DNA of 64,000 nt from Deltaproteobacteria bacterium (GTDB lineage Bacteria; Myxococcota_A; UBA9160; UBA4427). The stretch covers positions 1 to 64,000 of the forward strand of contig JAJDAN010000024.1 of NCBI GenBank assembly GCA_029261855.1, given 5' to 3'. Positions 57,788 through 62,390 of this stretch are shown here, piece by piece. The notes beneath the pieces are model-generated. The model searched no databases. It was not told the DNA's origin and saw only the letters and a program-made list of their open reading frames with translations. A program made the position numbers and the translations under genes. How positions within the stretch are numbered: position 1 is the first letter of the stretch; every line of letters starts with the position of its first letter.

Positions 57788-58825
57788 CTAGTCCAAGTCG
57801 AGCTGCGGCGACCCAGCCGGCGGTGCTCCCGCCCTCGATGCACGGAAGCCGGTGGCCGCCTGCCAGCCCGAAGTCTGCCACTCGTTGCCGTCCTCTTCGC
57901 GCACCCATGCTTCGGCGCGCTGTTCCTCGAGGACTGCGCGGCCCGCGGCTTCGTCGAGAACCAGCAGCGCGGTGCTCAGTACCTCGGCCTCCGTGGCCCG
58001 ACGGCCGACGACCACCGCGATGCGTCGCGATTGCAGGGCCTGGCCGCTGCGCGGGTCCACGACGTGGCCGTAGGCGACGCCCTCGATCACACTCGACTGG
58101 GCGAGGCTCGACGACAACGACAGTGCCTGGTCGCGAAGCTCGACCAGACCGACGGGCGTGCCGTCGTCCGACTCGATCAGCAAGCGCCAGGTCTGGCCCC
58201 CCGCCCAGACACTGCTGCGACCGAAGCTGAGCAGACAACGCGCCAGTCCCTCCTCTGCGAGCCGGGCGCGGACCCGATCCAGGGCGAACCCCTTGGCGAT
58301 TCCGCCCAGGTCGACGGACATGCCCGGCAGCGCGAGAGACGCTCTTCCCTGTTCGAGGCCGATCGGTCGACCGACTCGCGTCAAGACTTGGGCCAGCTCG
58401 TCGCGGGACGGCGCGCGGTCGCGGCCGGCCGCCTCGGTCCACAGCGCCACGACGGGGCCAACCGTCACGTCGAAGGCGCCCCGCGTGGCCCGGCGGGCGG
58501 ACTCGGCCTGCAACAACATCTCGTAGAGCGCCGGGTCCACCGCCGCCGGGCCCTGCCCCGCGGCGTCGTTCAGGCGGCTCACACCGCTCTCGGGATCGAA
58601 GCGACTGGCCACACGCGAGAGCGCCGCCACCTCTCGGAACAGCTGGTCGAGAGCCTCGCGAGCGGGGGCTTCGCCGCCTGGAGACACGCGCAGCGACACA
58701 TCCAGCACCGTCCCCATGACGAGACGACCGTCCTCGACGGCGACCCACTGGGGCGCTGGCTGCGCGCACGCAGTGCTCGCGACCGCGGCGAGCGCGAAGA
58801 GGAGGACCCGCCCGCCACTCGACAC
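57788..58825 (-). CDS. apbE: ApbE, FAD:protein FMN transferase
   Basis: A 345-residue lipoprotein. It transfers FMN from FAD onto a Thr of FMN-binding-domain proteins outside the cytoplasm. The GTG at 58825 is chosen since it begins the signal peptide (lipobox VASTAC) and avoids overlap with the previous gene; an ATG at 58885 would overlap it by 50 bp. Family motifs are present: RGAFDVTVGPVVALW, VDLGGIAKGFALDRV, YGHVVDPRSGQ, and STALLVLDEA near the end. It is the last gene of the flavin operon and should flavinylate the FMN-binding protein encoded two genes upstream. Confidence 0.9.
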   Translation of the reverse strand: MSSGGRVLLFALAAVASTACAQPAPQWVAVEDGRLVMGTVLDVSLRVSPGGEAPAREALDQLFREVAALSRVASRFDPESGVSRLNDAAGQGPAAVDPALYEMLLQAESARRATRGAFDVTVGPVVALWTEAAGRDRAPSRDELAQVLTRVGRPIGLEQGRASLALPGMSVDLGGIAKGFALDRVRARLAEEGLARCLLSFGRSSVWAGGQTWRLLIESDDGTPVGLVELRDQALSLSSSLAQSSVIEGVAYGHVVDPRSGQALQSRRIAVVVGRRATEAEVLSTALLVLDEAAGRAVLEEQRAEAWVREEDGNEWQTSGWQAATGFRASRAGAPPAGSPQLDLD

Positions 58826-58835
58826 ACGCGCGACG

Positions 58836-59399
58836 CTAGACCGGCTCGGTGGGTGTCCCGGAGGACGGCAGGTCGAGATCGTCATCGTCCTCGAGTTCCC
58901 AGTCTTCCCCGTCGAGGTTCTCCTGGCTCCCCGCGAACACCGACCACACGGAGATGACGATCAGGGTCGCCAGGCTCGCTTGCAGCAACAGGAAGCCGGC
59001 GATCTTGACGATGGCAAACGACTCTCCGCCGTAGCGAACCATCCAGCTCGCGCCTTCGTCGAGCAGACCCGCAAAGAAGGGAACCGAGATCAGCCAGGCC
59101 TTGAGCTTGCCCGAAAGGGGCACGAAGAGCATCAGGTGCGTCATCACCAGCAGCAACATGCCGAAGGCGAAAAGATGGAAGTGCGACACTTCCAGCAGGC
59201 CCTGGTAGGTGCGAGGCGACGTGTACTGCTCGGCGTCGCCGAGGTAGTAGGCGACCACCGACGACGGCGCGAGGCTCATCTTGTTGAAGTAGAGGGCTGC
59301 GTTGGTGACCCACAGCATCCCCACATAGATGGCGTACAGAAGTACGATGACCTGCAGCAGGCGATTGCGCGACCATTCTCCAGTAACCACGAAGCGCAA
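58836..59399 (-). CDS. Four-helix membrane protein with His-rich second helix
   Basis: A 187-residue inner-membrane protein: four helices (about 14-38, 73-95, 100-121, 128-155), then an acidic tail. The second helix carries His73, His75 and His88 in SHFHLFAFGMLLLVMTHL, a spacing that could ligate haem or a metal. The third helix has LLDEGASW, with charged residues in the membrane. The start is TTG at 59399. Its neighbours are an FMN-binding protein and ApbE, so it likely hands electrons across the membrane. No named family is recognised with confidence. Confidence 0.7.
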   Translation of the reverse strand: MRFVVTGEWSRNRLLQVIVLLYAIYVGMLWVTNAALYFNKMSLAPSSVVAYYLGDAEQYTSPRTYQGLLEVSHFHLFAFGMLLLVMTHLMLFVPLSGKLKAWLISVPFFAGLLDEGASWMVRYGGESFAIVKIAGFLLLQASLATLIVISVWSVFAGSQENLDGEDWELEDDDDLDLPSSGTPTEPV

Positions 59400-59403
59400 C
59401 GGG

Positions 59404-60054
59404 TCAGGGCTCCTCTCTCGCTTCTTCTCTCACTTCTTCTCTCACTTCTTCCACTTCCGTCTTCTCGTTCGCTCCGCCGTCCAGTTCCGGCGCGATCAGG
59501 ACCGCATGGTAGGCCAGCGCGCGTCTGACGCTGGCGGCTGCGACCCGGGTCGACAAGGTCGCGTTGACGACGCCATGGATGTCGCCCCCCACGCGCAGCT
59601 TGTCGTCTCCATCTGTGCCCTCGAACTGCGCGTACCACTTCTCGGCAGGCAGGTAATCGAGGGGTTCGTGGAAGGCGAGAATGCGGACCGAACGGACCGT
59701 CCCGTCGGGCAACCACACGACGAGCAGAGCCGAGGGATGCGTCCGGACCGTGTGGACGTCGATGTGTGCGTACCCCAGGACCTCGTCGCCCTTCCAGGCG
59801 GTGAAGATCGTGATGAGCTTCGTGTGGACGGCAGCACGCGCGGCGGACTCGATCGCGGTGACCTGGTCCTGGGACAGGATGATGGTGTCCTTCTCGATGC
59901 GGTCCGCATCGGGGAACGCCTGTTCCAGAGCCTCCTGGCGAGCCTGGAAGACCTTGGCTTCTGCGGTCGTCGCAGCGAACGAGAACGCGGCGAGAACCCC
60001 GATCAGGGCCCTCGCCGCGCGGTGACGGGCGCTGCGCGGCGTTCTGCCGCGCAC
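59404..60054 (-). CDS. Secreted FMN-binding-domain protein
   Basis: A 216-residue exported protein. The start GTG at 60054 yields a signal peptide ending in TAEA; a GTG at 60096 would overlap the porin. The FMN_bind domain (about 75-190) opens with VHTKLITIFTAWKGDEVLGYAHIDVH. It closes with the flavinylation region GVVNATLSTRVAAASVRRAL, where the Thr in NAT is the expected FMN attachment site. The C-terminal tail is Glu/Val/Arg repeats (EEVREEVREE). It sits 4 bp before the His-rich membrane protein. Confidence 0.85.
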   Translation of the reverse strand: MRGRTPRSARHRAARALIGVLAAFSFAATTAEAKVFQARQEALEQAFPDADRIEKDTIILSQDQVTAIESAARAAVHTKLITIFTAWKGDEVLGYAHIDVHTVRTHPSALLVVWLPDGTVRSVRILAFHEPLDYLPAEKWYAQFEGTDGDDKLRVGGDIHGVVNATLSTRVAAASVRRALAYHAVLIAPELDGGANEKTEVEEVREEVREEAREEP

Positions 60055-60058
60055 GCTC

Positions 60059-61465
60059 CTAGAAGACGAAGCCGATGCTCGCCTGCACCTGATCACTGAG
60101 GGATCCCCTCTTCGCCTGGAAGTCCCGGTAGTCGAGCTTCACGACGACCTGCGGAATCGGCTTGTAGCTCACGCCGTAGACGTACAGGTCGTAGTCGAGA
60201 CTCAGGTCCTTCCGGAAGCCTCCGGCGACGTCGTACTGGGTGTCGAGGTACTCGTAGCGAAAGAAGGGCTCCAGCGACATGTTCGTCTCGAAGAAGAGCG
60301 GCATCACGTCGTAGGCGATCTCCGCGTAGCCACCGATCATCTGCTGCGCGACCGAGCTGGTCGTCCCGAGATCCAGTGCACGGGACAGGCTGCCCGCATC
60401 GTCCACGAAGGCGTGGGCGAACAGCCCGCGCAGACTCAAGCCGTGCGCCTTGTACTGCGCGTGGAACTCGTAGATGTGAACGAAGGCGTCGGGGATCTGA
60501 CGGGTTTCGGTGGTCGGCTGAATCACCACGTCGCCGGGCGGCGTCGTGCAATTGGCGATGCAGACCGAGTTCGTCTGGTTCTGGCCGGACTTGCCGGCAT
60601 AGACCGAGCCGCCGATCAGGAAGCCCGGCAAGGCGTCGCCGGCCTCGTAGTCGACGCGTCCGACGAAGGCCCAGTCGTCGGCGAGCGCTTCGCTGCCGTT
60701 CTGACGGCCTCCGCGCAGGCCGTTGTCCCGGAAGCCCTTGGCGTCGAAGCCATTCACGCCGTACATGCGGTAGTGGACGTCGCCGCCGCCACCGAGGTCG
60801 AAGGTGCCGAAGATGCCGCCGCCGTTCTCGCGCCAGGTCGTCGGCAGGATGCGCCGCTCGACCTCGGGCCGTTCCGCACCGAAGTAGAACGGGGGCTCGT
60901 GCACTTCGTTGAGGAAGCCCATGGGAATCAGCACCAGTCCGGCCCGGATGTTGAAGTATTCCTCGACGAGGAAATCGACGGTCAGGAACTCGATGGAAGC
61001 CGAACCGCTCTTGCTGGTGCTGCCGTGCTCGAATTCCACCTCGGAATTCATGACCAGCCAGTCGTTGAACTTGTATCCGGTGTAGAGGACGAAGCGCAGG
61101 GCATCGAAGACGTCCTGTCGGCCATTCGAGTTCTTCGTCTGGTGCTGGAAGCGAACGTCGCCGTAGCCACCGATGGACAGTCCCCGGTCTCGTCGGTAGA
61201 CCTTCGAGGCGGCAGGACCGAGACCGGAGAAGCCGTCGGTCTCCGTCAGATCGTCCGGTACGGCCTCGTCGCTCTTCAGATCCGCGATCTCTTCGGCGAG
61301 CACCCGGAGCTTCTCTTCGAGCTCCTGGAGTGTCGTCTCGCTGCTCTCGTCGTTCGCGGGGGTGGCTTCGGCTACCGCCCCACCCGCGAAGGCGACGGCG
61401 AACAGCGATCCCAGAAGGACGATCTGCCACGTGCTCGTTCGGGGGGGTGATGTCGTGCTCTGCAT
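60059..61465 (-). CDS. Outer-membrane porin-like barrel of the flavin operon
   Basis: A 468-residue exported barrel. The signal peptide ends at AVAEA. A short coiled coil follows (TTLQELEEKLRVLAEEIADL, about residues 47-66), then a barrel of about 16 strands, ending QASIGFVF with terminal Phe. Coiled coil plus barrel is typical of trimeric phosphate- or carboxylate-type porins (OprP-like). ATG 61465 with GAGG upstream is preferred to ATG 61498. It is first in the operon, behind the Fur-like promoter. Confidence 0.82.
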   Translation of the reverse strand: MQSTTSPPRTSTWQIVLLGSLFAVAFAGGAVAEATPANDESSETTLQELEEKLRVLAEEIADLKSDEAVPDDLTETDGFSGLGPAASKVYRRDRGLSIGGYGDVRFQHQTKNSNGRQDVFDALRFVLYTGYKFNDWLVMNSEVEFEHGSTSKSGSASIEFLTVDFLVEEYFNIRAGLVLIPMGFLNEVHEPPFYFGAERPEVERRILPTTWRENGGGIFGTFDLGGGGDVHYRMYGVNGFDAKGFRDNGLRGGRQNGSEALADDWAFVGRVDYEAGDALPGFLIGGSVYAGKSGQNQTNSVCIANCTTPPGDVVIQPTTETRQIPDAFVHIYEFHAQYKAHGLSLRGLFAHAFVDDAGSLSRALDLGTTSSVAQQMIGGYAEIAYDVMPLFFETNMSLEPFFRYEYLDTQYDVAGGFRKDLSLDYDLYVYGVSYKPIPQVVVKLDYRDFQAKRGSLSDQVQASIGFVF

Positions 61466-61504
61466 GATCTCGGCCTCGTCCTCTGCTGGGTGCGTCATCA
61501 ACTG

Positions 61505-61583
61505 ACTAATTGAAAAGGATTTTCAATTTCAATGGAGATCAGGTTGTACCGAAATCGGATTTCATTTTCAATAACTGAATTCA
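61505..61583 (-). promoter_or_regulatory. Sigma-70-like promoter with Fur-like dyad
   Basis: On the minus strand: -35 TTGAAA (61566-61571), 17-bp spacer, -10 TACAAC (61543-61548), predicted start near 61536. Overlapping the start region is the exact dyad TTGAAAA-GGA-TTTTCAA (61510-61526), preceded by another TTGAAA. A second TTGAAAATGAAAT lies over the -35. The whole 79 bp is AT-rich in GC-rich DNA. The TTGAAAAT/ATTTTCAA style matches Fur boxes in several groups, so iron control is inferred. Confidence 0.65.

Positions 61584-62390
<807 letters not shown>

Follow-up and report, generated by a model that had tools for sequence, protein, structure and literature searches.

The window analysed here is a stretch of 64,000 nucleotides from a Deltaproteobacteria bacterium (GTDB lineage Myxococcota_A, UBA9160, UBA4427; GenBank assembly GCA_029261855.1, contig JAJDAN010000024.1, positions 1 to 64,000 of the forward strand), and the subject of this study is a cassette of four genes on its minus strand. 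They encode, in this order, a porin (60059-61465) with a signal peptide and an N-terminal coiled coil, an exported flavin mononucleotide (FMN)-binding protein (59404-60054) with an FMN_bind domain of the RnfG/NqrC type, a 187-residue four-helix inner-membrane protein with an acidic C-terminal tail (58836-59399), here called TM4, and an ApbE flavin transferase (57788-58825) of what will be described as the cassette lineage. The gaps between the genes are 4, 4 and 10 bp, and the arrangement put forward in the original prediction, with four head-to-tail genes at such distances behind a Fur-type dyad, was confirmed in order, strand and spacing. The longest open reading frames (ORFs) of the cassette genes overlap their neighbours (that of the porin opens at 61501 and that of ApbE at 58885, while that of the FMN-binding protein can be extended to 60096); later start codons give the gaps just listed, along with normal-looking signal peptides, and the TTG start of TM4 coincides with the start position of every homologue. 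In front of the porin gene lies the Fur-box palindrome TTGAAAATCCTTTTCAA (61510-61526), which is the core of a larger dyad, GAAATTGAAAATCCTTTTCAATT. With somewhat better than even confidence, the cassette is taken to be an operon under Fur repression whose products make up a flavin-based reductase acting outside the cytosol, with ferric iron destined for uptake as its most probable substrate.

A profile scan for TM4, with one genome per species, yielded 80 loci in records named Myxococcota, Deltaproteobacteria, Binatota/Binatia, Entotheonella, Methylomirabilota, Wallbacteria, Riflebacteria, methanotrophs and others, some of these names being probably imprecise for metagenome-assembled genomes (MAGs); among related genomes, 70 of 98 contain a TM4 homologue. 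The FMN gene is present in 78 of the 80 loci, the porin gene in 67 and a same-strand ApbE gene just downstream in about 60, with a constant order. All of these loci were found through TM4, and the figures therefore show which genes accompany TM4, and not the frequency of those genes where TM4 is absent. Remote TM4 homologues from other Myxococcota, at about 30% identity, also adjoin FMN_bind, ApbE or porin genes. The conservation of the gene neighbourhood, which had been proposed as a check, is borne out in this way, and the order porin-FMN-TM4-ApbE spans several phyla, so that the unit extends beyond a single lineage. What did not hold is the role of ApbE as an obligatory part of the set: in 11 loci the sole ApbE gene is convergent, being the last gene of an nqr operon in those inspected, and in 20 cassette loci from the methanotroph order to which the Methylobacter record belongs the FMN gene adjoins TM4 without exception and the porin gene is nearby in 17, with no ApbE gene nearby.

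The palindrome upstream of the porin gene agrees at 15 of 16 defined positions with WTGAAAATNATTTTCAW, given in PMC545781 as the Fur box consensus of metal-reducing delta-proteobacteria. The suspected Fur-like dyad could be followed across those 54 homologous loci whose upstream DNA was long enough: in 43 of them at least 13 of the 16 positions match at a site within 700 bp upstream of the porin gene, as opposed to none of 54 equal-length stretches inside the porin gene, and dinucleotide-preserving shuffles reached the same level in 3 of 1080 cases. The E. coli Fur consensus, which was used first, gave the same picture (41/54 upstream, 0/54 within the porin gene and 19/540 shuffles). With a promoter box conserved in its orthologues, the cassette would qualify as a member of the Fur regulon. 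In the 6.96 Mb genome that contains the window, such palindromes with at most two mismatches occur three times, the cassette site being the best, and other sites of a related pattern lie before a gene for a TonB receptor beside a FecCD-type ATP-binding cassette system and about 450 bp from a ferritin-family gene, a further one lying in front of a small gene. A small ORF elsewhere in the same genome (L145, 5084-5497, on C42) has a Fur-type box 50 bp before it and is possibly a member of the iron regulon. Furthermore, a fur gene lies directly upstream of the cassette in 13 loci, and PF01475 was recognized in both of those tested.

A second, independent link of TM4 to iron is its adjacency to FTR1. 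In two methanotroph MAGs (L106, 4947-6510; L107, 1631-3194) an FTR1 permease is fused to a C-terminal Rieske domain (domain matches at 5.1e-33 and 1.1e-10, respectively), and TM4 follows 13 bp later; in L106 a truncated multicopper-oxidase gene (Cu-oxidase_3, 2.4e-10) is found upstream of FTR1, and the translated sequence between these two genes ends, as judged by eye, like a ferritin-family protein. The genome of the window encodes two Fur-family proteins and FeoB; FTR1 is absent from it. The cassette is linked to iron because of the Fur boxes, the adjacent fur genes, the sites near iron genes in its own genome and the position of TM4 directly after FTR1. A reductase acting on copper or on another metal, with Fur control being secondary, has also to be considered, TM4-family matches being present in 109 of the 151 genomes of the order of the Methylobacter record, that is, in organisms with a high copper need; however, Fur-type boxes and fur genes accompany the cassette in most Myxococcota and Binatota loci, and a reductase of this kind is regarded as very improbable.

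As had been anticipated, TM4 has three His residues in one helix and belongs to no family that can be named. None of its 47 close members gave a Pfam family above noise, no NCBIfam match was obtained, its profile had no match among PDB sequences, and the best hits of a fold search of the PDB (a designed protein and MAPEG enzymes) were not significant, with an E value of 0.8. The same 47 proteins, at E ≤ 0.1, did not match NapH (PF12801), MsrQ (PF01794), PepSY (PF03929), DsbD (PF02683), NqrB/RnfD (PF03116) or DUF4405 (PF14358), and two TM4 proteins had no match in a plasmid collection. A profile comparison also showed no similarity to DUF4405, giving a probability of 0.2% with a set of DUF4405-matching proteins that was small and mixed, two of its rows being cytochrome-b-like.

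The AlphaFold model of TM4 (predicted local distance difference test, pLDDT, 87) consists of four long helices, with H73, H75 and H88 all in helix 2. These three residues, along with G54, E70 and L89, are identical in the 47 close and in 10 remote homologues, and define the signature E70-x2-H73-x-H75-x12-H88-L89 (59136-59192, minus strand). A di-iron site formed by E70-x2-H73 and E115 was considered and dropped, E115 being unconserved in the remote homologues. Positive charge at the N-terminus and in the loop that joins helices 2 and 3 suggests a cytoplasmic location of both termini of TM4; in that orientation H73 and H75 would lie in the half of helix 2 that is nearer the periplasm, and H88 where this helix reaches the cytoplasm. 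The 13-residue spacing between H75 and H88 is close to that of the haem ligands in cytochrome b helices. Because these two residues are so spaced on one helix, a TM4 homodimer with two b haems is plausible by analogy.

The methanotroph order contains distant TM4 relatives of greater length (mostly 243-290 residues), with a single CxxCH motif in the region between helix 1 and helix 2; they retain HxH and have other, mostly basic, residues at positions 70 and 88. Proteins of this type (L225, 4576-5307; L224, 4639-5784; L238, 4404-5135; and similar ones) have varying neighbours, and the two that were tested gave no Pfam or NCBIfam match. As far as can be judged from sequence, the same membrane module is combined either with a flavin protein as its partner or with a c-type haem motif of its own, and it is mainly for this reason that TM4 is called an electron-transfer protein. 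The occurrence of haem and flavin forms of the module, the distant relatives having the c-haem motif instead of the FMN partner, would also fit an iron-sparing substitute, in which a flavin carrier replaces a cytochrome-based periplasmic carrier when iron is short and serves a respiratory acceptor, Fur control being explained on these grounds. Flavodoxin in place of ferredoxin is a precedent of this type, and the exchange of flavin and cytochrome is documented for other flavinylation systems (PMC8238504). However, the porin that is co-conserved with TM4 would be needless for a purely internal exchange of carriers, and the position of TM4 beside FTR1 points to iron handling; iron sparing is considered an unlikely, although not far-fetched, explanation of the cassette.

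As to the flavin-bearing part of the putative ferric reductase, the ApbE of the window matches the whole domain profile of PF02424 (E value, 9.9e-54) and carries the catalytic His in the sequence YGHVVDP, which agrees with the pattern [YF]xHxxDP. The match of the FMN-binding protein of the window to PF04205 is weak when it is searched on its own (E value, 0.12); 27 of 30 members of its family match PF04205, the best at 2.4e-8, and a search with the profile of this family finds RnfG of solved Rnf complexes at 4.7e-9, in an alignment that includes the flavinylation Thr. T180 and L181 are invariant across the family (codon of the flavin-accepting Thr, 59557-59559; residue numbering of the longest ORF), and the window protein is an FMN_bind protein with the flavin-accepting Thr in place. 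The predicted presence of ApbE and its substrate in one cluster was upheld in this manner, with the qualification that the substrate motif is aberrant: it reads HGVVNAT (59557-59577, minus strand), and lacks the canonical Asp, Ser and Gly of the published ApbE motif D-x-x-[ST]-G-A-[ST] (PMC12052999). Single changes at the Asp, Gly or Ala of the motif leave flavinylation in place, at about half in the case of Gly and Ala, according to the review in PMC12052999. Because such changes still permit flavinylation, the altered motif alone is no sign of a dead substrate.

The canonical Asp is missing in all of the 67 loci scored with a cassette ApbE, where the motif is mostly HGxxG[AS]T, and kept in 32 of the 37 in which ApbE is convergent only or not found nearby. 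These counts come from related sequences and are hence misleading; the supported branches of the TM4 tree provide only three independent contrasts, of which two, on average, agree with the association, one shows no difference and none is opposite, a number too small for significance. The ApbEs of the cassettes are a lineage of their own, separate from the nqr ApbEs; in the cassette lineage GG[DE] is changed to G[QGR]SS and, in the metal-ligand region, AD to AE, so that the Asp ligand of Mg is Glu. Locus L078 holds both kinds of ApbE, one per lineage, and its substrate bears the H motif. From these sequences, the cassette ApbE and the motif of its substrate look as if they had diverged together from the general ApbE system, which is a strong lead rather than proof. 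The genome of the window has four ApbEs, namely, the cassette copy, one in an nqr operon, one next to a DUF3570-like gene and a lone copy. The protein resembling DUF3570, as judged by eye (L268, 2933-5215, on C34), contains SGAT, follows a thioredoxin-like gene and adjoins its ApbE, with which it makes up a separate flavinylation system.

The porin of the window, when searched alone, had no Pfam match, and a PDB sequence search with the porin profile also gave none; its relatives match BBP2 or Porin_O_P. The AlphaFold model of the porin (pLDDT, 84) shows a β barrel and, at the N-terminus, a helix that should form a coiled coil; it is nearest to porins of the OmpC/OmpF type (Foldseek E value about 1e-12). 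A single-chain transmembrane barrel is predicted on this basis, with a signal peptide judged by eye, and both the families of the relatives and the model back the barrel in the outer membrane that had been proposed. The co-conservation of the porin and its position as the first gene of the operon would be in keeping also with a porin-flavoprotein conduit, namely, a flavin analogue of the porin-cytochrome complexes through which electrons cross the outer membrane to an extracellular acceptor such as a metal oxide or another metal. Moreover, ORFs of 460-490 residues (L193, 5254-6636; L233, 2603-4075), which lie close to some of the distant TM4 relatives, combine CxxCH with a length and sequence suggestive of a haem motif at the N-terminus and an outer-membrane barrel after it. 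They match, however, no Pfam or NCBIfam family, which leaves the barrel unconfirmed; the modelled barrel of the window is of the ordinary porin type, and not a large conduit barrel, and the FMN protein has one FMN domain rather than a multi-flavin wire. A conduit of this kind is regarded as distinctly improbable.

Just 5′ of the porin gene, a small Cys-rich, zinc-ribbon-like ORF (CxCxCGSLxARxxxxGVExKCRRCKR) was noticed in several loci (L049, 3778-4008; L054, 3718-3945; L056, 3747-4070; L063, 3709-3996). Its opening codons seem to coincide with the Fur box in L049 and L063, and the L063 copy had no Pfam match.

The ferric reductase reading is drawn from the regulation and the gene context of the cassette, from which we infer the direction of electron flow, the quinol donor, a haem or other cofactor at the His residues and the iron substrate. 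With these assumptions, when iron is scarce Fur would leave the box at 61510-61526 and the four genes would be expressed. The porin would admit small iron complexes to the periplasm; TM4 in the inner membrane, with H73 and H75 facing the periplasm and H88 the cytoplasm, would draw electrons from the membrane pool, probably from quinol, and hand them outward to the FMN covalently held on Thr180 of the exported protein, onto which the flavin would be loaded by the cassette's own ApbE. This FMN would then reduce Fe(III), and the resulting Fe(II) would be imported by a carrier encoded elsewhere. The low-iron metal reductase of the original prediction is thus partly supported: its regulation and conservation are backed by the conserved unit, the Fur operator and the adjacent fur genes, to which the FTR1 link has been added, whereas its biochemistry is still putative; the part that fell is the obligatory ApbE.

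Several observations weigh against this scheme. The cassette itself has no iron transporter. No haem, quinone or metal site could be demonstrated in TM4, the fold and sequence searches of the PDB and the comparison with DUF4405 having given no relative. The c-haem relatives lack both E70 and H88, so that only HxH is common to the two forms. A weaker Fur box is seen in the methanotroph order, where 9 of 16 loci, as compared with 2 in-gene controls, reach a match of at least 13/19, and the degenerate motif HGVVNAT makes the attachment of flavin to Thr180 uncertain. A broader proposal is put forward tentatively, with confidence short of even: TM4 would found a new and widespread class of membrane electron-transfer proteins (E-x2-H-x-H-x12-H) that pass electrons from the quinone pool either to a carrier with covalently bound flavin or to a domain with c-type haem, and which in the cassette, along with the porin and a dedicated ApbE-substrate pair having its own recognition code, form an iron-repressed ferric reductase.

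With respect to the surroundings of the cassette, the operator sits in the AT-rich gap that separates the porin gene from an ORF on the same strand (62390..61584), which encodes a sigma-54-activator-like ATPase recognized by its AAA+ domain alone; a homologue of this ORF also precedes the porin gene in locus L065. No sigma-70-type promoter was recognized upstream of the cassette. A PP2C phosphatase gene lies downstream, and does not recur as a neighbour in the homologous loci.

Surveys of flavinylation gene clusters list, in their available text (PMC8238504 and PMC11334425), NapH-, MsrQ-, PepSY-, DsbD- and NQR/RNF-like membrane components and, later, DUF4405; in the same text the word porin does not occur and no TM4-like protein is described. 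Full-text literature searches for the gene combination returned nothing relevant, and the four-gene set, suspected to be undescribed, was not found described in the literature searched, as far as the accessible text goes. The cassette shares with these transmembrane systems, and with the DUF4405 protein FezC, a cluster in which apbE stands with genes for a membrane protein and for an exported FMN_bind protein that is flavinylated, and several of the systems likewise have links to iron; the small cytochrome FezC has been proposed to build its haem sites by homodimerization (PMC11334425). Unlike them, TM4 is outside these families, has four helices with the invariant His residues in one of them, and has a porin partner. 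With true ApbE and FMN_bind members, and a membrane component outside the listed classes, the set appears to work like a flavinylation-based extracytosolic reductase.

The cassette protein has the domain, the flavinylation Thr and the surrounding TL[ST] in common with the FMN_bind proteins RnfG, NqrC and NosR, but is free-standing, outside an Rnf, Nqr or Nos complex, and the Asp of the motif is replaced by His or another residue where the cassette has its own ApbE. The FTR1-Rieske gene before TM4 and the multicopper-oxidase fragment upstream recall, in the two methanotroph MAGs, iron uptake of the FTR1 type (FtrABCD, yeast Fet3/Ftr1), whereas the genome of the window has no FTR1, and we know of no FtrABCD component that resembles TM4. 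Finally, psp, a Fur-controlled hypothetical porin of Geobacter metallireducens and Desulfuromonas, resembles the cassette porin, as described, in that it is weakly similar to phosphate-selective porins (Porin_O_P) and stands behind WTGAAAATNATTTTCAW Fur boxes; no link of psp to FMN_bind, ApbE or a membrane protein is seen in the available text of PMC545781, and it may be a relative of the cassette porin.

According to the survey in PMC11334425, about half of the genomes with flavinylation machinery have no characterized system. The cassette would add a further membrane component to the five classes and DUF4405, and would place it, through Fur and FTR1, in the context of iron limitation, in methanotrophs and in uncultured Myxococcota and Binatota of little-known iron physiology. 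The paired change of the ApbE active site and the substrate motif would be a natural route to a second flavin-tagging code, which might not cross-react with the standard one.

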